From Halorubrum aquaticum (GTDB lineage: Archaea; Halobacteriota; Halobacteria; Halobacteriales; Haloferacaceae), in contig NZ_FOPZ01000004.1 of the NCBI RefSeq assembly GCF_900113615.1, positions 124,001 through 188,000 of the forward strand: a stretch of DNA of 64,000 nucleotides. The letters run 5' to 3'. The notes under the pieces are model-generated. The model did not search any database. It was given only the letters and a program-made list of their open reading frames with translations, and was not told where the DNA came from. Every line of letters begins with the position of its first letter. Position 1 is the first letter of the stretch. A program made the translations under genes and the position numbers. Shown in pieces: positions 17,932-63,786 of the stretch.

Positions 17932-18066
17932 TCAACACGCTCGTTTCATCTGGCTGCGATACGAGAGCGTGGTGACGTCGAAGGCATCGTCGTGACGATC
18001 GAGCGTGAGCACGTGATCGACATCCAGCTCGTCCATGTGTGTGGCGACGACGAGATCGTTAAAGCG
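17932..18066 (-). pseudogene. C-terminal fragment of a PIN-domain toxin gene
   Basis: The translated fragment reads VVATHMDELDVDHVLTLDRH and closely matches the last 40 residues of the intact PIN protein at 19268-19759 (VVAAHMDELDVDHVLTFDRH). The start is missing and the original stop is lost, so six extra residues are read. It sits between the deoxyribosyltransferase-like gene and the second HTH/TumE pair. Confidence 0.75.
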
Positions 18067-18117: not shown

Positions 18118-18687
18118 ATGGAGGATCCGGGTTCGGATATCCAAGCCGACACCGACGAACGGGCGCCGAACTTTGACGCGCTGACCCCGCCGGAGGAGGT
18201 TGTCCGTGGTGATCGAACACGGGACGACTTTTTCGATGCCGTGCTCGGACTCGACGACCCGGCGACAGCCAGCGAGGTTGCCGAGCGTGCGGGACACGGG
18301 GTCGACGCCGCACGTGAATACTTGGACTGGTTCGAACGGATGGGTATCGTCACCCGGGTCACGGACTCGCCGGTCACCTACGAACGGAATCAGGAGTACC
18401 TGAACTGGCGACGCGTCCAGACGCTCCGACGCGAATACGCTACCGAAGAGTTGCTTGCCCTGCTACAGTCGGAATCAGAGCGGGCGGATACACTCGCAGC
18501 TGAATTTGACGCCGAGTCCCCGACGGGCGTCTCGATCACACAGTATGCCGCAGCAAGCGACCAGTCTATCGAGGCGGTCTGGGAGCAACTCTCGTCGTGG
18601 AAAACTGCTCGTCGTCGTGTGTCTCTCCTCGAACGAGCACTCACTCCCACGTCCGGCGACGCCACGGATCTCGAATCCGCGGCATGA
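18118..18687 (+). CDS. Winged-HTH regulator, putative antitoxin of copy B
   Basis: 189 residues, homologous to 16016-16549. HTH at about 50-85 (ATASEVAERAGHGVDAAREYLDWFERMGIV) with the following TYERNQEYLNWR wing, then a helical C-terminal half with DAESPTGVSITQYA, matching DAASPTAVDAFDHA in copy A. The ATG at 18118 lies just after a GTGGGAT leader. Its stop overlaps the ATG of the TumE-like gene. Confidence 0.75.
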   Translation: MEDPGSDIQADTDERAPNFDALTPPEEVVRGDRTRDDFFDAVLGLDDPATASEVAERAGHGVDAAREYLDWFERMGIVTRVTDSPVTYERNQEYLNWRRVQTLRREYATEELLALLQSESERADTLAAEFDAESPTGVSITQYAAASDQSIEAVWEQLSSWKTARRRVSLLERALTPTSGDATDLESAA

Positions 18688-19130
18688 CTGCCGGCTGCGA
18701 GGACGAGACAAGGAGTTCGATCTCCGGTGGGCCTATCGATTTCGACCGGATAGAGGTCATTCGGGAGCGTCTCGCGACGGATGATCGGTTCACCGAAGTT
18801 GATGACCAGCCTGGCTTCGCGCCCGAACGACTGGTCTGTCAGTACAATAGGCAACTCTACCCTAACCGGGTTCGGAGTGCCCGGTTAGAGATTGTCTGGT
18901 TCGAAAACGGGGACTTCTCGCTCCACTATCACGAAACCCACGAGACGGGGGCGTTCGATCACCGGTGGGATAGACATCCGTCTGGTCACAACGCTCGCGA
19001 CCACGTCCATCCGGGACCAGAGGCCCCAACTCCCGGCAACGATACGACACACCCGACCGACTGGCGTGACGTTCTCTCGACGGTGCTTTCGGAGATCGAA
19101 GACCGCCAGCGTGGCTTCTGGACCCGGTAG
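18684..19130 (+). CDS. TumE-like (DUF6516-like) putative toxin, copy B
   Basis: 148 residues. The start overlaps the upstream stop (ATGA at 18684-18687). The core reads ARLEIVWFENGDFSLHYHET, then HRWDRHPSGHNARDHVHP (about 97-113), the same motif as copy A at 15582-16019. The two operons diverge considerably in sequence but keep gene order and overlap, so they are old paralogs or independent acquisitions. Expected role: toxin held in check by the HTH partner. Confidence 0.65.
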   Translation: MTAGCEDETRSSISGGPIDFDRIEVIRERLATDDRFTEVDDQPGFAPERLVCQYNRQLYPNRVRSARLEIVWFENGDFSLHYHETHETGAFDHRWDRHPSGHNARDHVHPGPEAPTPGNDTTHPTDWRDVLSTVLSEIEDRQRGFWTR

Positions 19131-19267: not shown

Positions 19268-19759
19268 CTAGCTGCGATACGGAAGCGTGGTGACGTCGAA
19301 GGCATCGTAGTGACGATCGAACGTGAGCACGTGATCGACGTCCAGTTCGTCCATGTGTGCGGCGACGACGAAATCAGTGAACGACGCGTCCAGATCCGTC
19401 CACTCGGTGAACGTCGCTTTGGCGTCGGTGAAGACGCTCTCGGAGACGGTTTCGAACCGATAGAGGGAACTCTCGTCGAGCGTTGTCAGGAACGAGACGG
19501 CGTTCGTCATCGACGCCTGTTTCTTCAGCCGGGTGGCCGCCTCATCGACGATGTGGTCGTTGACGATGAGTCGTCGATAAGGGAGATCACCGTCACGAAG
19601 GAAGGTCATGAACGCTCGCGAGACGGCGTGCATCTGGTCGCGAGGATTGAACAGCGCGTAGAGAAACTTCGGGCCGATGACGATCCGATGTCGGACGTGC
19701 CCCGGCCGGAAGTGTTCGGCTGTCACGGTACCGATAGGCGTCTCGACTGGCTCTGCCAT
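19268..19759 (-). CDS. PIN-domain toxin (VapC-like)
   Basis: 163 residues from the ATG at 19759, which overlaps the antitoxin stop by one base (TAATG). PIN acidic residues are visible: Asp of LIVNDHIVDEAA (with Glu next to it, about 75-80), Asp of DASFTDFVVAAHM (about 130) and Asp of HVLTFDRHYDAF (about 148). These would hold the metal ion of an RNase. Fragments of the same gene family lie at 13595-13696 and 17932-18066. Confidence 0.8.
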   Translation of the reverse strand: MAEPVETPIGTVTAEHFRPGHVRHRIVIGPKFLYALFNPRDQMHAVSRAFMTFLRDGDLPYRRLIVNDHIVDEAATRLKKQASMTNAVSFLTTLDESSLYRFETVSESVFTDAKATFTEWTDLDASFTDFVVAAHMDELDVDHVLTFDRHYDAFDVTTLPYRS

Positions 19760-31057: not shown

Positions 31058-32044
31058 ATGCAAATTCTCGTGACGGGAGGGGCCGGGTTCATCGGCGGCC
31101 ACCTCGCCGAGTCGTTCCTCGCCGACGGCCACGACGTGACGGTCCTCGACAACTTTGAACCCTTCTACGCCGAGGGCATCAAACGCCACACCCTCGATGT
31201 CCACCGCGAGGTGGCGGACGAAGGCGATTCGGAGTATCGGTTCGTCGAGGGCGACGTGCGTGATCCCGAGACAGTCCACAAAATCGTCGACGACACGGAT
31301 ATCGTCGTTCATCAAGCCGCGCAGGCGGGCGTCCGCGAGAGCGTGGACAACCCCCGGACGGTGACCGACATCAACGTCGACGGGACGGTGAACCTGCTCG
31401 AGGCGTCCAAGGAGGCAGACGTGAAGCGAGTGATCCTCGCGAGCTCCTCGTCGGTGTACGGCAAGCCGCACTCATTGCCCTACGAGGAGGACCACCCGAC
31501 CGAGCCCGTGAGTCCCTACGGGGTGACGAAGTTGACCCAGGAGCACATGGCGCGGGTGTACACGGAGCTTCACGGCCTGCCGACGGTGTGTCTGCGGTAC
31601 TTCACGGTGTACGGGCCGCGGATGCGTCCCAACATGGCGATCTCGAACTTCGTCTCGCGGTGTCTGAACGGCGAGCCGCCGGTGATCTATGGAGATGGAC
31701 AGCAGACGCGTGATTTCACCTACGTGGCTGACGTGGTGGACGCGAACCGGACGCTACTGGATTCCGATGCGGCTGACGGCGACGTGGTGAACATCGGGAG
31801 CTCGGACAACATCTCGATTCAGGAGTTGGCCGAGACGGTGCGGGATCAGTTGGCGCCCGAACTGGAGATCGTGTATGAATCCGCGCGCGAGGCCGACGCC
31901 GAGCACACGCACGCGTCCGTGGAGAAGGCCGGCGAACTGATCGGGTATGAGCCCTCACGAACGATCACGGAGGGCGTCGGCGAGTTCATCGAGTGGTATC
32001 AGGCGAACCGGGAGTGGTACGAACCGTTGGTGCGGTCGTCGTAG
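31058..32044 (+). CDS. NAD-dependent epimerase/dehydratase (UDP-glucose 4-epimerase type)
   Basis: 328 residues, extended SDR family. It has an N-terminal Rossmann motif TGGAGFIGGH (residues 6-15), DVRDPETV, the conserved HQAAQAGV, LASSSSVYG, the catalytic SPYGVTKL (Tyr-x-x-x-Lys), RYFTVYGPR, and IYGDGQQTRDFTYVADVV. It most likely interconverts UDP-hexoses or UDP-uronic acids for N-glycans. The longer open frame from 30917 adds Arg/Ser-rich residues with no family match, so I chose 31058. Its last 127 bases are repeated at 33195-33321. Confidence 0.85.
   Translation: MQILVTGGAGFIGGHLAESFLADGHDVTVLDNFEPFYAEGIKRHTLDVHREVADEGDSEYRFVEGDVRDPETVHKIVDDTDIVVHQAAQAGVRESVDNPRTVTDINVDGTVNLLEASKEADVKRVILASSSSVYGKPHSLPYEEDHPTEPVSPYGVTKLTQEHMARVYTELHGLPTVCLRYFTVYGPRMRPNMAISNFVSRCLNGEPPVIYGDGQQTRDFTYVADVVDANRTLLDSDAADGDVVNIGSSDNISIQELAETVRDQLAPELEIVYESAREADAEHTHASVEKAGELIGYEPSRTITEGVGEFIEWYQANREWYEPLVRSS
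31918..32044 (+). repeat. Epimerase 3' end, unit 1 of a direct repeat
   Basis: The last 42 codons of the epimerase. They recur at 33195-33321 with roughly 14 differences by eye, mostly at third codon positions. The 1.15 kb between the two copies carries the two genes at 32139-33153. Confidence 0.85.
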
Positions 32045-32138: not shown

Positions 32139-32654
32139 ATGTCTCGTGCTGTCGGGTACCGCCTCGTCGCACTCGGAGTCTGTGTCGTCCTTCTCAGCGG
32201 GGCCTTTGTGCTTGCTGGCGCGGGATATCCAGCACCCACGAGTCCGGGACCTGACCTCGCGGAGCCTGACGTGACACCAGCCGATCTGGCCGGCGACCAC
32301 GTCGAGACCGGTGGCGTCGTGATCGCAACTGACCCGGTGATCATCGAGGTCACCGACGGCACCACCACACAACGACTCCCTGTCGAGAATGCACCGGACG
32401 TCGCCGTTGGCCAAGACGTCATCGTCGATGGCACGCTCACGACGGACGGGACACTTGCTGCGGATCGGGACCGGACGGTCGTCCGGGAGCCGTGGGAGAC
32501 GACGTACATGTACGCGGTTTCGGTGCTTGGCGCACTGTTCGTTGCACTCCGGATCGCCGATGGGTGGCGATTCGATCCGGAGACGGTCGCCTTCTCACCC
32601 CGGGACACACCACTTCACACCCGCTATCTGTCGGAGGAGGAAGCCAGTGGCTGA
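32139..32654 (+). CDS. Membrane-anchored protein with OB-like central region
   Basis: 171 residues. An N-terminal hydrophobic helix (GYRLVALGVCVVLLSGAFVLAGAG), a beta-rich middle (GGVVIATDPVIIEVTDGTTTQRLPVENAPDVAVGQDVIVDGTL) that looks like a nucleic-acid-binding-type OB barrel exposed outside, and a second membrane helix (YMYAVSVLGALFVALRIADGW). Coupled by an eight-base overlap to the hydrolase-like gene downstream. Function unknown; the pair recurs in haloarchaea. Confidence 0.65.
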   Translation: MSRAVGYRLVALGVCVVLLSGAFVLAGAGYPAPTSPGPDLAEPDVTPADLAGDHVETGGVVIATDPVIIEVTDGTTTQRLPVENAPDVAVGQDVIVDGTLTTDGTLAADRDRTVVREPWETTYMYAVSVLGALFVALRIADGWRFDPETVAFSPRDTPLHTRYLSEEEASG

Positions 32655-33153
32655 TCTCTTCACGCATATTTTGGTCGGGTACGTCCTCGCGATCGTGCTC
32701 TCGTGGCGGTACGAGTGGATCTCCTATCCGTTCGTCACGGCGGTGATGATCGGGTCGACGCTCCCAGACCTCAATCGGATCGATCTGGTGGTCCCCGAGG
32801 AAACGATTTCAGTGCTCTTGGGACTCCCGTTCACGTGGAGTCCGCTCCACCGCGTCGGTGGCACGCTCCTGATCGTGTGTATTGGCGCACTCCTCGTCCC
32901 GAACGCGTATCGGCGTGTCGTGTTCGTTCTGTTATCCGTTGGTGCCAGCTCCCACTACGTGCTCGATTTGCTGTTGTATAAGCCGTCCGGGATCACGAGT
33001 CCGTTGTTGTGGCCGTTCGTCACACATGGGCTTGCCGTCGATGGGTTATATCTCAGTAGTGATCGGTGGCCGGTCGTCGCCGCGGCGGTGCTTGCTGGTC
33101 TCGTTTGGGTCGTCGATCAGCGTATGATGCGCACGGATCATTCAGACACGTGA
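32647..33153 (+). CDS. Membrane-bound metal-dependent hydrolase-like protein (DUF457/YdjM type)
   Basis: 168 residues from a GTG at 32647. Conserved positions visible are ADLFTHILVGYVL at the N-terminus, STLPDLNRID (Asp), FTWSPLHRVGG (His) and GASSHYVLDLLLYKPSG (His, Asp). At least four membrane helices. The family is related to YdjM, a DNA-damage-inducible inner-membrane protein in E. coli; the haloarchaeal role is unknown. A more distant relative is at 2670-3182. Confidence 0.75.
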   Translation: MADLFTHILVGYVLAIVLSWRYEWISYPFVTAVMIGSTLPDLNRIDLVVPEETISVLLGLPFTWSPLHRVGGTLLIVCIGALLVPNAYRRVVFVLLSVGASSHYVLDLLLYKPSGITSPLLWPFVTHGLAVDGLYLSSDRWPVVAAAVLAGLVWVVDQRMMRTDHSDT

Positions 33154-33194: not shown

Positions 33195-33321
33195 TATGGA
33201 GAAGGCCGGTGAGCTGATCGTGTATGAGCCCTCACGGACGATCACGGAGGGGGTAGGAGAGTTCATCGAGTGGTATCAGGCAAACCGGGAGTGGTACGAG
33301 CCGTTGGTGCGGGAGTCGTAA
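33195..33321 (+). pseudogene. Epimerase 3' end, unit 2 (gene remnant)
   Basis: Reads in frame as MEKAGELIVYEPSRTITEGV and on to EWYEPLVRES before TAA, matching the last 42 residues of the epimerase at 31058-32044 almost perfectly. Most base differences are silent, so this copy diverged inside a working gene and was brought here, not duplicated from its neighbour and left to decay. Confidence 0.85.
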
Positions 33322-55574: not shown

Positions 55575-56236
55575 GGCTCTGTAGTTTCGCTAGACGTGAA
55601 GCCGACGACTCCGTGATCTGGGTAGAAAGCGAAGAGACAGATCGGTGTGAGATCGGAAATCCGTCTCTTCACGCGTTGGCTAAGGCTAAATCAGTTGTCG
55701 CTAACCCGGACCCGCCTCTCCCTTCGGGGTCGGCGGGTTCGCAGAGTGGGCGATGCTCACCGTACATGTACTCCGCATCGAACAGGAAAATCCTACCGCG
55801 TCACCGTGGATTTGCTCTCAGAAATGCCCGGCGTGCTTGAAGAGATCGGATTCATCAGACTTCCACACTACACCGTGCTTCGCACGTGGTTTGAGCGGAT
55901 TCCGATCAAGACGTGGCGTGCGTTTTTCGGCGCGTCAGCCGAGAAACGCACCGATCCCGCTGCTATCGATTTGACTGGCTTTGACCGTGATCAGCCCAGC
56001 CGCCACTACGCCAACCGCACGAACTACCGCGTTCGAGCGCTGAAAGTCACGTACCACCAGCGCTCCATGTCAGAAACCGTCTTCTCGTCGGTTAAGCGCA
56101 CGCTCGGCTCCGCCGTGCGTGCGCGTAGCTGGTGGTTAGAGTTCCGTGAAATGCTGCTGAGAGCCACCGTCTACAACCTCCGTCGGAGAGTCCGATATCC
56201 GTGAAATCCGACGCGGTGTACCGAAACTACAGAGCA
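55575..56236 (+). mobile_element. Internally deleted IS5 (ISH1-like) element, 662 bp
   Basis: Left end GGCTCTGTAGTTTCG and right end CGAAACTACAGAGC, with 7 of 8 target bases matching (CATAAAAC at 55567-55574, CAGAAAAC at 56237-56244). It lacks about 264 bases relative to the intact copy at 1523-2448. The transposase frame at 55647-56204 joins RALKVT directly to YHQRSMSETVFSS, so the second catalytic Asp is lost. It can move only if another copy supplies transposase. Confidence 0.85.
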
Positions 56237-59503: not shown

Positions 59504-60439
59504 ATGAACGACAAACGCGTCCTCGTGACGGGCGGCGCGGGCTTCATCGGCTCGAACCTCGCGAACTGCCTCGCGGCGGACAACGACGTGATCGCCGTCG
59601 ACGACACGTACCTCGGCGACCCGGACAACCTCGACGAAGCGGTGAAATTCGTCGAGGCCTCGGTCCTCGAGGACGACTACCCCGCCGACGTCGACGTCGT
59701 CTTCCACCTCGCCGCGCTCTCCTCGCGCAACATGTACGAGGCGGACCCCCAGCGCGGCTGCCGCGTCAACGTCGAGGGCTTCATCAACACGGTTGAGCGC
59801 GCCCGCGAGCAGGGCTGTGAGACCGTCGTCTACGCCACCACCTCCTCTATCTACGGCAGTCGCACCGAGCCCTCGCCCGAAAGCATGGCCGTCGAGGCGC
59901 ACACCGCCTACGAGGCCTCCAAGCTCGCCCGCGAGCGCTACGCCGAGTACTACGCCAACCACCACGACATGAACATGGCGGGACTGCGCTTCTTCTCCGT
60001 CTACCAGGGCTTCGCCGGCAACGAGGAACACAAAGGCGAGTACGCCAACACGGTCGCGCAGTTCGCGGACGCGATCGCCCGCGGCGAGGCCCCCGAGCTG
60101 TTTGGCGACGGCAGCCAGACGCGCGACTTCACCCACGTCGCGGACGTCGCCCGCGCCTGCGAGCTCGCCGCCGACGAGGAGCTCACCGGCGTCTACAACG
60201 TCGGCACCGAGGAGGCGTACTCCTTCAACGAGATGGTCGACCTCATCAACGACGCGCTCGGCACCGATATCGACCCCGTCTACATCGAGTGCCCCTTCGA
60301 CGGCTACGTCCACGACACCATGGCCGACGCCTCCAAGTTCCGCGAGGCCACCGGCTGGGAGCCTGAGATCGGCTTCCGGGAGGGCGTCGAACGCGTCTGT
60401 GCGCCCTACCGCGAGGCTGACGCTCTCGAGACGAACTAG
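59504..60439 (+). CDS. NAD-dependent sugar epimerase/dehydratase
   Basis: 311 residues, very GC-rich. Rossmann TGGAGFIGSNLAN (9-21), VFHLAALSSRNM, ATTSSIYGSRT, the catalytic Tyr and Lys in AYEASKLARERYAEYY, LRFFSVYQGF, and LFGDGSQTRDFTHVADVA. The usual GPR after VYG is VYQGFAGN. A UDP-sugar epimerase or dehydratase, most likely for the glycan. Its last codons are copied at 61606-61740 and 63356-63434. Confidence 0.85.
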   Translation: MNDKRVLVTGGAGFIGSNLANCLAADNDVIAVDDTYLGDPDNLDEAVKFVEASVLEDDYPADVDVVFHLAALSSRNMYEADPQRGCRVNVEGFINTVERAREQGCETVVYATTSSIYGSRTEPSPESMAVEAHTAYEASKLARERYAEYYANHHDMNMAGLRFFSVYQGFAGNEEHKGEYANTVAQFADAIARGEAPELFGDGSQTRDFTHVADVARACELAADEELTGVYNVGTEEAYSFNEMVDLINDALGTDIDPVYIECPFDGYVHDTMADASKFREATGWEPEIGFREGVERVCAPYREADALETN

Positions 60440-60517
60440 CGGGGCGCGACCGGCGGGGAAAGCGGGACGCGACTGATGCGGAAAGCGGGCCGTTTCGAGC
60501 TACTCCGTGGTCTCGGT
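60364..60517 (+). repeat. Epimerase 3' end, unit 1 (R1)
   Basis: The gene's own last 25 codons (reading EIGFREGVERVCAPYREADA then LETN and stop) and about 80 bases after the stop. It shares the tail with R2 (61606-61740) and R3 (63356-63434), including GGGACGCGAC after the stop. R1 and R2 also share GAAAGCG and a TTTCGA-x-CT-x-CTCCGTGG segment. Confidence 0.85.
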
Positions 60518-60583
60518 CATGCGTCCATCCCGTGAATCGCGTTCGAAAGCGAGCGTGTGTTCGTCTTGTGACCGCCTGAGGAT

Positions 60584-60979
60584 TCAGTAGGTCTCGACCG
60601 ACACACCTAACGCTTCGAAGTCAGCCACGTTATCCGTCAGGACTGCGTCATCGAGGACGGCCGCCATCGCGGCGATGTACCCGTCGTTCGCTCCGACGCC
60701 GGTGTCCCCGCCGACACGATCGTCCGCCTTCGCGAGGAGTTCTCCGGCCGTCCGCGCGATCTCTTCGTCGACGTCGATGCGCGGATATCCAAGGAGGCGG
60801 TTTCGGACCTCCTGGGTGGTTGTATCGCTACGTACCGTGGCGACACCGTAGTACGCCTCGGCGACCACCGGCGTCGGGAGCCACTGCATCTCGCCGTTCT
60901 CGACGAGTTCAGCGCCCTTGGAGAACGCGTCCGGGTCCGCCGCCATCAGATCGAAGAGGTACGAGGAGTCGATGATCAT
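60584..60979 (-). CDS. vapC: VapC-type PIN-domain toxin
   Basis: 131 residues: MIIDSSYLFDLMA (first Asp), VAEAYYGV (Glu), GANDGYIAAMAAV (third site) and DAVLTDNVADFEALG (fourth). Start overlaps the antitoxin stop (ATGA at 60976-60979). This is the textbook VapC pattern; expected to cleave tRNA or rRNA. Confidence 0.88.
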   Translation of the reverse strand: MIIDSSYLFDLMAADPDAFSKGAELVENGEMQWLPTPVVAEAYYGVATVRSDTTTQEVRNRLLGYPRIDVDEEIARTAGELLAKADDRVGGDTGVGANDGYIAAMAAVLDDAVLTDNVADFEALGVSVETY

Positions 60980-61224
60980 TCGCTCGTCGTCCCGCTGTCG
61001 AAGGTGCTGCGGGCGGCATCGAGGCGGTCACGGTCACCCTCGCGGAGACGGTTGACCGCCTCCTTAGCCGCCTCGGCCTCCCGTTCGGTCAGGAGCCCGG
61101 CGACGTCGTCGGGATGTGGTCCGCGCGTCATCCGGCGCAACGTCTCCTCCATCGTCTCGTCGTCCTTCTTGTGGGCGTTCAGCCACTCGTGATACTCCTC
61201 CGAGACCCGGATGGTTTTGACCAT
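60976..61224 (-). CDS. vapB: VapB-type antitoxin
   Basis: 82 residues from the ATG at 61224, which follows a TATATTGGGATATATGGG segment that suits a promoter. KTIRVSEEYHEWLNAHKKDDETMEETLRRM resembles the ribbon-helix-helix/DUF7557-type archaeal VapB, followed by a helical acidic tail that binds the toxin. The longer frame upstream is Arg-rich and not credible. Confidence 0.85.
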   Translation of the reverse strand: MVKTIRVSEEYHEWLNAHKKDDETMEETLRRMTRGPHPDDVAGLLTEREAEAAKEAVNRLREGDRDRLDAARSTFDSGTTSE

Positions 61225-61297
61225 GTCATATATTGGGATATATGGGTCTAAGAGTGTTTTGCCGCGGATAACGAATACCCAGCCGTTCCATACGATT

Positions 61298-61334
61298 GAC
61301 ATCCTCCCCTCACTCAAGCGCGAGGCTTTCTCCT
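61298..61334 (+). mobile_element. Hairpin end of a lost IS200/IS605 (TnpB) element
   Basis: GACATCCTCCCCTCACTCAA followed by GCGCGAGGCTTTCTCC has the CCTCCCC...GAGGCTT form usual at the end of haloarchaeal TnpB elements. Related end at 52244-52275. No transposase gene nearby. Confidence 0.4.
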
Positions 61335-61385
61335 TGACTTTCCTAACAGTAGTCACCGATGAGCTTTCAGACGAATACTGCTGAG

Positions 61386-61490
61386 TTACTCCGCGTCCTC
61401 GTCGTCGTCGTCGTCCGCGAGAGCGTCGTATAACTCGGCGTGTTCCTCGACGTCTTTCGCCATGTCTCGCTCGCTCTCCCAGTTCATCAT
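61386..61490 (-). CDS. Small acidic protein, 34 residues
   Basis: ATG at 61488-61490 (a second ATG follows at once), reading MMNWESERDMAKDVEEHAEL and ending in a run of six Asp and EDAE before TAA. Intact and with haloarchaeal codon use. It may be a small protein or a remnant of a larger acidic one. Confidence 0.35.
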   Translation of the reverse strand: MMNWESERDMAKDVEEHAELYDALADDDDDEDAE

Positions 61491-61605
61491 ACTCGAGGAT
61501 AGGGTACGTACTCGTGAGAAGTGTTGCTGATGGACGGTCAATGCTCACATTCGACGAGGAGATCCCTAAGGTGGCGCGATCGGAGATGTGTCTCTGCCGT
61601 ACACA

Positions 61606-61740
61606 CGGAGATCGACTTCGCGGAGGGCGTCGAACGCGTCCGTGCGCCGTATCGTGAGGCCGACGCTCCCGGGACGAACGAGGCGGGACGCGACAACGTA
61701 GAAAGCGAAACAGTTTCGAACTGCTCCGTGGCCTTCGGTC
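61606..61740 (+). repeat. Epimerase 3' end, unit 2 (R2)
   Basis: Reads EIDFAEGVERVRAPYREADA then PGTN, but the stop codon has become GAG, so the frame runs on. Closely similar to the epimerase end at 60364-60517 and, in its PGTN ending, even closer to R3. It separates the vapBC module from the MazF/HTH module. Confidence 0.8.
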
Positions 61741-61749
61741 TACTGCCGG

Positions 61750-62091
61750 TTACGGAATGAGAGAGATCAGTGACTTTTTCAGCAGTCTTCGCCCCGATTC
61801 CGTGAGTTCGCCTTTCGTATTTCCATTCATGATCGTCCCGGGGGCGATCGTGTATAGTGCCCACGCCATCAGGTACGACGTGTCGGTGAAGGAGATGCCG
61901 TCGAGATGCTCGTCTGTGAGCTCCGGTGTGGTTTGCTGGTACGCTCCGGCGCTCGTTCCGACACACATCACGGTACAATCGGTGGCACTGAACGGGTGTG
62001 TCTCGTGAGCGAGCACGACGACCGGTCTCTGGGGGTGGGCACCCGTCGGATCCCGTGCCCAGCAAACGTCTCCTGCTGAGAGCTTACTCAT
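61750..62091 (-). CDS. MazF/PemK-like toxin
   Basis: 113 residues: LSAGDVCWARDPTGAHPQRPVVVLAHETHPFSATDCTVMCVGTSAG matches the N-terminal beta barrel of the MazF/PemK family (PF02452). MazF proteins are sequence-specific endoribonucleases. The start overlaps the upstream HTH gene by eight bases, so it is coupled to its likely antitoxin. Confidence 0.75.
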   Translation of the reverse strand: MSKLSAGDVCWARDPTGAHPQRPVVVLAHETHPFSATDCTVMCVGTSAGAYQQTTPELTDEHLDGISFTDTSYLMAWALYTIAPGTIMNGNTKGELTESGRRLLKKSLISLIP

Positions 62092-62497
62092 CCAATCCGT
62101 CCATCTCGTTCTCTAGCGCGTCCAGCTCCGCATCGAGTTCCTCATCAGTCCGACCGTCACCGATCCGTTTCTCGGGGGTCTCGGGAGTGGTCTCCTCGTC
62201 GCGGTGGTGACCGAACAGCCGATGTGTTTGGTCGAGACTGGAGACGTACCGCCGGATATCTTCACGGTCACCGAGGGCGTGGTAGTAGCCGTCATCGGTC
62301 TTCCCCAGATAGTCGTCGTCGTAGAGACGTTTGAGCGTGGTCGTGGCGGTTCCCCGAGGGATGTCGAGGGCCTCCGTGACGTCTTTGGGAGAGTATCCCC
62401 ACTCGGGGTGTTGATAGAGGTATTTCACGATATCCGACTTCGTGGTCCCCGGTCGAAGGGCGAGTTCGGGGTCGTGGTCCTTGAGGAGTATTGGCAT
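62084..62497 (-). CDS. Winged-HTH protein, likely antitoxin of the MazF-like toxin
   Basis: 137 residues from the ATG at 62497 (the frame is open to 62551, but those codons read out of family). Winged helix at about 17-70 (TTKSDIVKYLYQHPEWGYSPKDVTEALDIPRGTATTTLKRLYDDDYL), then a long acidic tail (DEELDAELDALENEMDGLDE) that would cover the toxin. HTH + MazF-type pairing is unlike the usual AbrB-type MazE but is seen in archaea. Confidence 0.7.
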   Translation of the reverse strand: MPILLKDHDPELALRPGTTKSDIVKYLYQHPEWGYSPKDVTEALDIPRGTATTTLKRLYDDDYLGKTDDGYYHALGDREDIRRYVSSLDQTHRLFGHHRDEETTPETPEKRIGDGRTDEELDAELDALENEMDGLDE

Positions 62498-62573
62498 TGT
62501 GTATTCGTATGTAGTTGATTGTATTAGAAAACCGTTTCGGTCAGAGTACACACATCAAGGATCGCTGAGCCGC

Positions 62574-62975
62574 TCACACACCGTCTTCACGAAATCGCTT
62601 CACGGTCACGTCGACGTCGTCGAAATCGTCGTCAGCACCCGTGTAGGCTGTCGCCCCCTCCATCGCTGCTGTGGCTAGCGTGAAGGCGTCTCCGAGTGCG
62701 ACGTTGTAGTCGCGTTTGTGATCGGCGGCCGATTCCCAGACGTCTTCGGCGGTAACGACATCGCACCAGTTTCGAATCCGAGTTACGTATGCCTGCGCCG
62801 TCTGCGGGTCGTCTCGTCCGCATACGTATCGCACTTCGGTACACGTCACCGTATTCACTGACCCCTTCAGCCGGCCGTCTTCTACGCGGTCGATGACTGC
62901 TTCGACGGCATCACTCCCGGGCTCGTCCCAGTAATAGGCGATCAGCGGTTCCGCATCGAACACGACGTGATCCAT
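62574..62975 (-). CDS. vapC: VapC-type PIN-domain toxin
   Basis: 133 residues: VVFDAEPLIAYYWDE (first Asp), CTEVRYV (Glu), ALGDAFTLATAAM (third) and TAYTGADDDFDDVDV (last acidic site). One-base overlap with the antitoxin stop. Typical of the AbrB-partnered VapC group. Confidence 0.85.
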   Translation of the reverse strand: MDHVVFDAEPLIAYYWDEPGSDAVEAVIDRVEDGRLKGSVNTVTCTEVRYVCGRDDPQTAQAYVTRIRNWCDVVTAEDVWESAADHKRDYNVALGDAFTLATAAMEGATAYTGADDDFDDVDVTVKRFREDGV

Positions 62976-63244
62976 CAGTCGTCTCGCTCGAGGCGTTGAC
63001 TTCGCTCCTCGTCGACCTCCCGCTCCTCACGAAGGATGGCCGTCCCGCGCTCTGCCGTGGTTGCTGCTCCACGGAAGTCTTGGAGGCTGGGGAGTGGTTC
63101 GACGACGATCTCTCCCTGCTCGTTTTCGTGGATGCGGACCCTGCTTCCCGGTTCGATTCCGTGCTTCTCCCGGAGTTCTTTGGGGATCGTCGCCTGACCT
63201 TTCTGACTCAGGCTCACGATTCGACCTCCGTTAGTTGTACTCAT
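62975..63244 (-). CDS. vapB: AbrB/SpoVT-type antitoxin (VapB)
   Basis: 89 residues from the ATG at 63244. SLSQKGQATIPKELREKHGIEPGSRVRIHENEQGEIVVEPL is the swapped-hairpin AbrB domain, and the last 35 residues are a charged helix that would bind the VapC partner. TATAGTACTACTTTTCAATATAC just upstream (63245-63267) is AT-rich and promoter-like. Confidence 0.88.
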   Translation of the reverse strand: MSTTNGGRIVSLSQKGQATIPKELREKHGIEPGSRVRIHENEQGEIVVEPLPSLQDFRGAATTAERGTAILREEREVDEERSQRLERDD

Positions 63245-63355
63245 TATAGTACTACTTTTCAATATACTACCTTGAACCTTTCGTCAGTCATGGTTTGAAT
63301 CTCGCCGCTCTGTCGGTTGCGCACGTCAAATCACGCTCTGTGAGCGCGAACGCCA

Positions 63356-63434
63356 GTTCCGGGAGGGCGTCGAGCGCGTCCGTGCGCCCTACCGCGAGGC
63401 CGACGCGCCCGGGACGAACTAATGGGACGCGACC
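63356..63434 (+). repeat. Epimerase 3' end, unit 3 (R3)
   Basis: In frame it reads FREGVERVRAPYREADAPGT then N and a TAA. Many differences from R1 are silent, and it shares PGTN with R2. It separates the AbrB/VapC module from the DUF433 gene. Confidence 0.85.
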
Positions 63435-63504
63435 CGAGGTGTCTCTCGTTCGGAGAACGAGTTCCATGCTCGTATTTTTATTGTCGGCACGCATACGCAG
63501 TCAC

Positions 63505-63786
63505 ATGGCAGTGACGAAGTACCGGATCGTCTCCGGCGACGAGTCGAAGATCCATGACGAGCCCCATCTCGAGGGGAGTCGAGTGACGGTTCGACAGCTC
63601 CATGCGCTCATCGAGGAGGCCGAGCTTCGGCCCCAACAGGTCGCGGATCGTCACGGACTCGACGTCGGTGAGGTGTACGAAGCGCTCGCGTACTACCACC
63701 GAAATCCCGAGGAGATGCGGCGCGTCGAGGCGCGCCACGGTCGCGCTGCCGCGGAGGCGGCACGACGTTCGTCGGTGGCCCCATAG
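63505..63786 (+). CDS. DUF433-family HTH protein (antitoxin-like)
   Basis: 93 residues from the ATG at 63505: RIVSGDESKIHDEPHLEGSRVTVRQLHALIEEAELRPQQVADRHGLDVGEVYEALAYYHRNPEEMRRVE, a complete DUF433 domain (about 6-75) with its HTH. DUF433 proteins are antitoxin-like partners of DUF5615-type PIN proteins. No such partner follows before the window end. The broken relative is at 33421-33660. TATTTTTATTG at 63472-63482 is a likely TATA box. Confidence 0.8.
   Translation: MAVTKYRIVSGDESKIHDEPHLEGSRVTVRQLHALIEEAELRPQQVADRHGLDVGEVYEALAYYHRNPEEMRRVEARHGRAAAEAARRSSVAP

Follow-up and report, generated by a model that had tools for sequence, protein, structure and literature searches.

The stretch of Halorubrum aquaticum DNA considered here, called the window, is 64,000 nucleotides (nt) long and corresponds to positions 124001-188000 of contig C4 (C4:124001-188000) in a genome of 3.18 Mb. 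Towards its end stands an intact gene for an NAD-dependent epimerase, whose 3' end recurs twice downstream in the form of displaced tails, all in the same orientation as the gene itself (Table 1). The DNA between and behind these copies is occupied by genes of toxin-antitoxin (TA) type, and the origin of this arrangement is the subject of the present analysis. The next best full copies of the epimerase in the genome are 70% and 65% identical to it. A VapBC-like pair follows the gene, then a winged helix-turn-helix (wHTH)/MazF pair and an AbrB/VapC-like pair lie between the second and third copies, and a DUF433 gene comes after the last one. This content, proposed in an initial annotation made from the letters alone, is borne out by Pfam, with matches above the cut-offs for PIN (two genes) and MazE/AbrB and sub-threshold matches for MazF/PemK, wHTH, VapB/DUF7557 and DUF433. 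A relative of the MazF-like gene in H. halodurans does pass the Pfam cut-off. As for the DUF433 gene, a piece of it (residues 7-93) is found behind the intact epimerase of genome G037, and behind a pseudogene in H. halodurans the first 97 bases and the DNA past the DUF433 gene match, whereas the gene itself is unrecognisable.

Table 1. Features of the epimerase locus, followed by other genes of the window that carry a displaced 3' tail (positions in the window; E, expectation value)
Feature	Position	Strand	Remarks
Intact NAD-dependent epimerase (host gene)	59504..60439	+	Epimerase Pfam E 1e-45; C-terminus CAPYREADALETN
Parental tail copy (epimerase 3' end and post-stop sequence)	60355..60483	+	
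VapC-like PIN toxin, cargo unit 1	60584..60979	-	PIN E 3.6e-9
VapB-like antitoxin	60976..61224	-	VAPB_antitox / DUF7557, sub-threshold
Left flank X1 of copy 2	61353..61607	.	Also before tails of H. cibi and Halorubrum sp. 48-1-W
Displaced 3' tail, copy 2	61608..61694	+	Gene nt 862-947, stop lost
MazF/PemK-like toxin, cargo unit 2	61750..62091	-	PemK_toxin E 0.005, below cut-off
wHTH antitoxin-type partner of MazF	62084..62497	-	MarR_2 E 4e-4, sub-threshold
Second VapC-like PIN toxin	62574..62975	-	PIN E 1.2e-9
AbrB/MazE-type antitoxin	62975..63244	-	MazE_antitoxin E 6e-13
Displaced 3' tail, copy 3	63357..63434	+	Gene nt 871-948
DUF433 antitoxin-type gene after copy 3	63505..63786	+	DUF433, sub-threshold
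Second epimerase, epi2	31058..32044	+	Same kind of scar
Displaced 3' tail of epi2	33197..33318	+	91% to gene
PIN-like gene (named by eye)	19268..19759	-	Has a displaced 3' tail
Displaced 3' tail of the PIN-like gene	17953..18057	-	92%; behind a pair with an HTH-like member (by eye), 18118-19130

The repetition was recovered in several ways. A repeat search of the window gives one family with three copies of 102 nt (60355-60456, 61598-61699 and 63338-63439), the two displaced ones being 72% and 80% identical to the gene copy over the whole reference. A core pattern of the tail, with up to three mismatches allowed, matches exactly three times in the window and never in 100 shuffles, and the two relics score 4e-21 and 1e-22 in a whole-genome search. 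Thus, the three copies noticed initially stand for the window, but not as a total, since three more tails lie further along the contig. Both displaced copies encode PGTN where the gene has LETN, as had been stated; in addition, the stop codon of copy 2 is destroyed, with GAG in place of TAG. A shared sequence after the stop, claimed as well, is present, but in the gene copy it does not follow the stop immediately. Indeed, GGGACGCGAC stands there at 60464-60473 and is preceded by the variant GGGGCGCGAC, within a 23-nt imperfect tandem.

The three tails outside the window are longer (C4:204248-204447, C4:205618-205760 and C4:207012-207200) and located 20-23 kb downstream. They are parted by an MNT/HepT pair and by pairs with a DUF7342-type HTH gene, and a gene for UDP-glucose dehydrogenase comes afterwards. 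Alignments between tails of this genome span 73-205 bases at 82-94% identity. When the whole genome is searched with the tail, long matches fall in contig C4 only: besides the six copies of the gene end, 53 nt of a paralogous epimerase match, and there is one exact match of 22 nt. All others have E values of 0.006 or worse. With the long matches confined in this way, tails scattered widely at unrelated positions were not found, and the possibility that they form an independent dispersed repeat was rejected. Plasmids and phages were also considered as carriers of the tail and dismissed: eight plasmid records give matches of only 71-81%, seven of them to annotated epimerase genes and one to a place with no listed feature, and the phages give no tail match. 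As a separate observation on the MNT/HepT module, a 490-base piece of it is duplicated at 94% identity (C4:201743-202232 and C4:204628-205117).

The survey of relatives covered 52 genomes of the genus Halorubrum, H. aquaticum included, with an orphan 3' end defined by at least 79% identity and by not being part of a full copy. Seventeen orphan epimerase 3' ends were found in 8 of these genomes: five in H. aquaticum, four in Halorubrum sp. 48-1-W, two each in H. cibi and H. yunnanense (G051), and one each in H. halodurans, H. halophilum (G013), H. kocurii and genome G018. The strain-by-strain comparison suggested in the initial annotation thus reveals strong differences in cassette presence between related genomes, and a three-copy layout common to all of them was not observed. 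A mirror search with the 5' end of the gene yielded three orphan 5' ends of at least 90 bases, in G004, G032 and G035. Two more epimerase pieces stop short of the gene end (H. halodurans and G043), and two copies possess both ends with the middle missing (G013 and G044). Among 18 fragments whose flanks were compared over 700 bases, 16 retain the 3' end, the loci having been picked partly with 3' probes; two further 5'-truncated copies (L105 and L116) stand outside this set. The 5' borders of the compared tails are spread over gene nt 342 to 871, and the longer remnants include one of full length but with a shifted frame in H. halodurans and one spanning nt 342-949 in H. cibi.

An intact gene end, then cargo, then the repeated end in the same orientation is also the geometry produced by site-specific integration, in which the gene 3' end would serve as attachment site, an integrase would act in trans and each cassette would bring the 3' part of the site. 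The initial annotation had likened the locus to integration at the end of a tRNA gene. This likeness receives no support from the variable 5' borders, which leave no constant crossover core, nor from the several unrelated host genes that are affected (see below). A recombinase, expected in some cassettes, was not recognised by Pfam among the cassette genes of the window; in the part of the long middle block that was scanned, an IS200/IS605 pair is the only transposase. Tails do not fold unusually either, as seven single-strand folds (the gene copy, five tails and one reverse strand) are no better than those of shuffled sequences (z from -0.45 to 0.96), and a folded attC-like recombination site was discarded. 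Site-specific integration is therefore regarded as highly improbable.

The direction of the process can be read at one site found both filled and empty. In genome G016, the empty case, the epimerase is followed 94 nt on by a saccharopine-dehydrogenase-like gene. In H. yunnanense, a DUF5615/DUF433 pair and a tail of 160-180 bases stand between the epimerase and the saccharopine-dehydrogenase-like gene, and from the tail onward the two genomes are colinear for 2.7 kb. The displaced tail ends with CEPYSEDAPEE, to which only the CEPYSERAPEEV of G016 is similar among 38 gene ends. Because of this match with G016 alone and of the colinearity, the displaced tail of H. yunnanense is identified, from its sequence, as the old gene end. 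The intact gene now in front of it ends with CEPYK, as in SD626R (CEPYK) and nearly as in H. sodomense (CESYK). The same cargo is present in H. sodomense and a DUF433 part of it in SD626R, and when H. yunnanense is aligned with H. sodomense, its intact gene and the cargo form one contiguous block. The end of this intact gene probably came with the TA cassette. The far junction, already decayed, could be placed within about 130 nt.

Cargo accompanying a gene end can be followed in other genomes as well. Fic together with X1 stands behind the intact gene and before HyuB in H. rubrum, and behind a tail and before another tail in sp. 48-1-W, with an unbroken alignment that takes in the final 190 bases of the gene as well as the cargo. 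A MarR/MazF pair (MazF2) is located behind the intact gene and before HyuB in H. halodurans; in sp. 48-1-W it comes after a tail and ahead of UDP-glucose dehydrogenase. The match between the two covers gene end and cargo but is interrupted around the stop by about 100 bases that do not align, and the sp. 48-1-W tail lies near a contig end. The same cargo is thus found behind the epimerase 3' end in different chromosomal contexts. In a survey of 39 loci, one of them with just 222 bases of flank and some with cargo named by eye, the genes next to the intact epimerase are VapBC, AbrB/PIN, MarR/MazF, DUF5615/DUF433, Fic, others or none. Gene ends were compared for 38 of 39 genes, L082 being dropped for its two-codon frame from the listed start. 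Relative to the 5' parts, 3' ends are more alike among genes with a common right flank (19 versus 684 pairs), a difference equalled in 14 of 2000 permutations with relatedness partly controlled. The proposal that each cassette brings its own tail is therefore supported in part, by the different contexts, by the displaced old end of H. yunnanense and by a gene end resembling those of other carriers of the cargo.

Fifteen of the 18 fragments were set against the epimerase of their own genome, two internal ones and that of Halobellus rarus being excluded. For ten of them, the copy of another genome beats the own gene by bit score. Four of the five displaced tails of H. aquaticum share 92-95% identity with tails from other species, against 85-91% with the own gene, and the tail at C4:204248 displays mixed affinities. 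Both results speak against tandem duplication and decay, by which an epimerase with its TA module would have been copied in place before the 5' parts were lost and the TA modules replaced. The long remnants of H. halodurans and H. cibi are what such copying would leave, and the own gene is the best match for four of the H. aquaticum tails. The cargo nevertheless differs between successive tails, and decay alone predicts neither the 3' bias nor a tail in H. yunnanense with an end unlike that of its gene, so that this explanation is held to be rather unlikely. Insertion with a long target duplication, as for restriction-modification systems, would have a TA unit inserting itself and duplicating about 100 bases of its target. 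The geometry and the length of the repeats fit the description given in PMC3874152, but identical sister repeats are predicted, whereas the tail of H. yunnanense and nine others match another genome better, and remnants of several hundred bases exist. Insertion of this type is considered improbable.

The flanks of the tails have been shuffled. A glycosyltransferase gene or X1 on the left is combined with MazF/wHTH or UDP-glucose dehydrogenase on the right in all four possible ways, and the same is true of X1 or HVO_A0114 on the left with MNT/HepT or UDP-glucose dehydrogenase on the right. Thus, X1 with its tail is followed by MazF/wHTH in H. aquaticum, by UDP-glucose dehydrogenase in H. cibi and by MNT/HepT in sp. 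48-1-W, and the glycosyltransferase with an epimerase copy by VapBC in H. aquaticum, by MazF/wHTH in H. cibi and by UDP-glucose dehydrogenase in G001. The left and right neighbours of the tail relics have been freely recombined, and copy 2 of the window is the clearest case. Positions 61353-61688 align with the second H. cibi junction and positions 61609-62569 with the first, and the two alignments overlap in the 80-base tail only, which places the switch inside 61609-61688. A different kind of change was noted in sp. 48-1-W (L048:954-1568), where MazF has been deleted from a MazF/wHTH module and the antitoxin-type gene left behind alone.

Several other host genes carry scars of the same kind. 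The tail of the second epimerase of the window, epi2, consists of its last 40 codons and is located 1.15 kb downstream, beyond two small genes (32139-33153) that are not of TA type by eye. In G011, G038 and G039, displaced epi2 ends lie behind TA-type pairs (named by eye, not by Pfam). When the full copies are ranked by their match to these tails, the own copy at the same locus comes first in G011, fourth in G038 and thirteenth in G039; for the tail of H. aquaticum, the own gene ranks first by a hair. Genome G021 has two full epi2 copies in similar surroundings, a point in favour of tandem duplication. A nucleotidyltransferase gene likewise has a remnant of its own 3' end downstream in G028 and G035, with MazF/wHTH in between (a MazF piece in the case of G035). 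Among the nucleotidyltransferase tails of G028, G035 and G050, the own gene was ranked for the first two, coming first in G028 and sixth in G035, which does not decide the matter. The segment of G035 concerned (L198:4756-6837) also holds one of the rare epimerase 5' orphans, adjoining MNT and HepT pieces, close to the nucleotidyltransferase, whose displaced 3' piece comes after a fragment of MazF. In H. aquaticum, a gene at C4:192539-194782 shows a similar scar, its displaced 3' tail (91%) lying beyond a nucleotidyltransferase-HTH gene and a HEPN-like gene, the latter named by eye and lacking a Pfam match. A general control covered 867 kb of this genome with 854 called genes, those of at least 450 nt being tested. 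It returned 31 rows of partial copies, divided into 12 3' copies, 10 5' copies and 9 internal ones. Among the 12 3' rows, eight represent displaced tails, which belong to four genes and all fall within C4:141953-207170; of the other four, two belong to a tandem paralogue pair, one is an internally deleted copy and one lies 20 kb away.

The explanation judged likely is that TA modules are captured behind biosynthetic genes with a homologous anchor on one side only, and that the relics then undergo homologous recombination with one another. The repeated tails would then be relics of gene ends pushed aside. Incoming DNA from a related haloarchaeon, probably linear, would carry an epimerase 3' end with a TA module behind it, and this end would pair with the recipient epimerase as homologous anchor. 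The far side would be joined without homology, inside the recipient gene or just behind it. The product would be an intact chimeric gene, a new TA module and the 5'-truncated old gene end with the old downstream DNA, and repeated capture would build an array. The end of the intact gene would, as a rule, arrive with the cargo. The remnants would afterwards serve as short homologous joints through which TA modules could be exchanged, duplicated or deleted between arrays and species, presumably by host recombinases and with no dedicated recombinase. To judge from the gene families, the TA modules may be retained through addiction. One-sided anchoring combined with an illegitimate join explains the variable 5' borders, the kept 3' ends, the old DNA past the tail and the recombinant joints.

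A number of points weigh against this capture. Transformation and gene transfer enter it by inference and not by direct observation. Clear pairs of filled and empty sites amount to one, that of H. yunnanense and G016, in which the tail, beyond its last codons, shows no clear preference for G016 over other genomes. Other species commonly have short gene ends of the CEPYK type too, and H. sodomense has the cargo and no tail. More generally, a TA-type gene adjoins the epimerase at 10 loci and a tail lies nearby at one of them (H. yunnanense), so replacement of the ordinary two-sided kind must be frequent as well. Five of the 15 tails, four of these in H. aquaticum, match the own gene best, as duplication would give. 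A lost stop codon is common to seven tails in three genomes, meaning that several descend from earlier tails and are not separate captures, and that many already circulate as tails. Two of the shuffled joints (G001 and H. halodurans) hold internal epimerase pieces with no 3' end. The count of 17 orphan 3' ends to three 5' ends is based on draft genomes, with a few pieces near contig ends, and partial gene copies in H. aquaticum are generally free of 3' bias (12 versus 10 in the control).

Arrays of cargo delimited by repeats beside a gene end are known from the staphylococcal cassette chromosome (SCC) elements at rlmH and from integrons, each SCC element bringing the 3' part of its attachment site in rlmH. 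Unlike these, the present arrays have no recognised recombinase, no constant border and no unusual fold. Rhs orphan tips are strings of displaced 3' ends behind one intact gene, and these ends encode toxin domains. The strings seen here are alike in form, with the difference that they consist of dead ends of a metabolic enzyme gene. Restriction-modification systems inserted with a long target duplication are reportedly those of Helicobacter pylori. Such insertions (Nobusato 2000, as cited in PMC3874152) share with the present case an addictive pair at a gene, direct repeats of about 100 bases and no known mobile element, but most tails here are not sisters of the gene end, and arrays of these repeats are common to several species.

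The closest known case is that of the orphan immunity-gene arrays of the type VI secretion system in Vibrio cholerae (Kirchberger et al. 2017, PMC5361080), and the explanation of these authors is nearly the one proposed here. They proposed an upstream homology anchor with a homology-facilitated illegitimate join on the far side, by which the 3' end of the old gene and its old partner are shifted back, successive events giving arrays that recombine between strains (PMC5361080). Rhs orphan tips are mentioned in the same paper. The present arrays share with this type an intact gene with modules behind it, among which 5'-truncated remnants of older copies stand, and sites that are filled in some relatives and empty in others. 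In Vibrio, the displaced gene is an effector and the cargo its immunity gene, whereas the anchor in the present case, a metabolic gene of sugar-nucleotide biosynthesis, is unrelated to its TA-type cargo. The arrays described here also belong to an archaeon, and their relics contain joints documented between species. In the open-licence literature, 'toxin-antitoxin' and 'homology-facilitated illegitimate recombination' were not found together, nor were VapBC and epimerase for Halorubrum.

The case bears on how TA modules travel between chromosomes in the absence of mobile elements. The traces of movement are readable at this locus, as the gene-end relics give the order, direction and partners of capture and the joints can be mapped to about 80 bases. 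The proposed route, in which the 3' end of a conserved gene serves as homologous anchor, is testable and may also account for the way TA genes cluster in the surface-sugar islands of archaea. Any genome can be screened for the signature of a displaced end. A broader view, held tentatively and with somewhat less than even confidence, is that the dead 3' ends of the epimerase and of other sugar-nucleotide genes constitute a recombinase-free cassette system in the surface-sugar loci of Halorubrum. They would act as a homology currency kept circulating between species by addictive TA modules, with islands growing, shrinking and swapping like integron arrays by general homologous recombination alone.

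Two further observations concern the same contig. At C4:213524-213552, H. aquaticum lacks an epimerase that H. halodurans, H. cibi, H. rubrum and G001 have there, between the genes for an FAD oxidoreductase and hydantoinase B. In the window, positions 1631-2416 and 55677-56201 represent a gene and its second copy with an internal deletion, 53 kb apart and with an identity of 91-93%.

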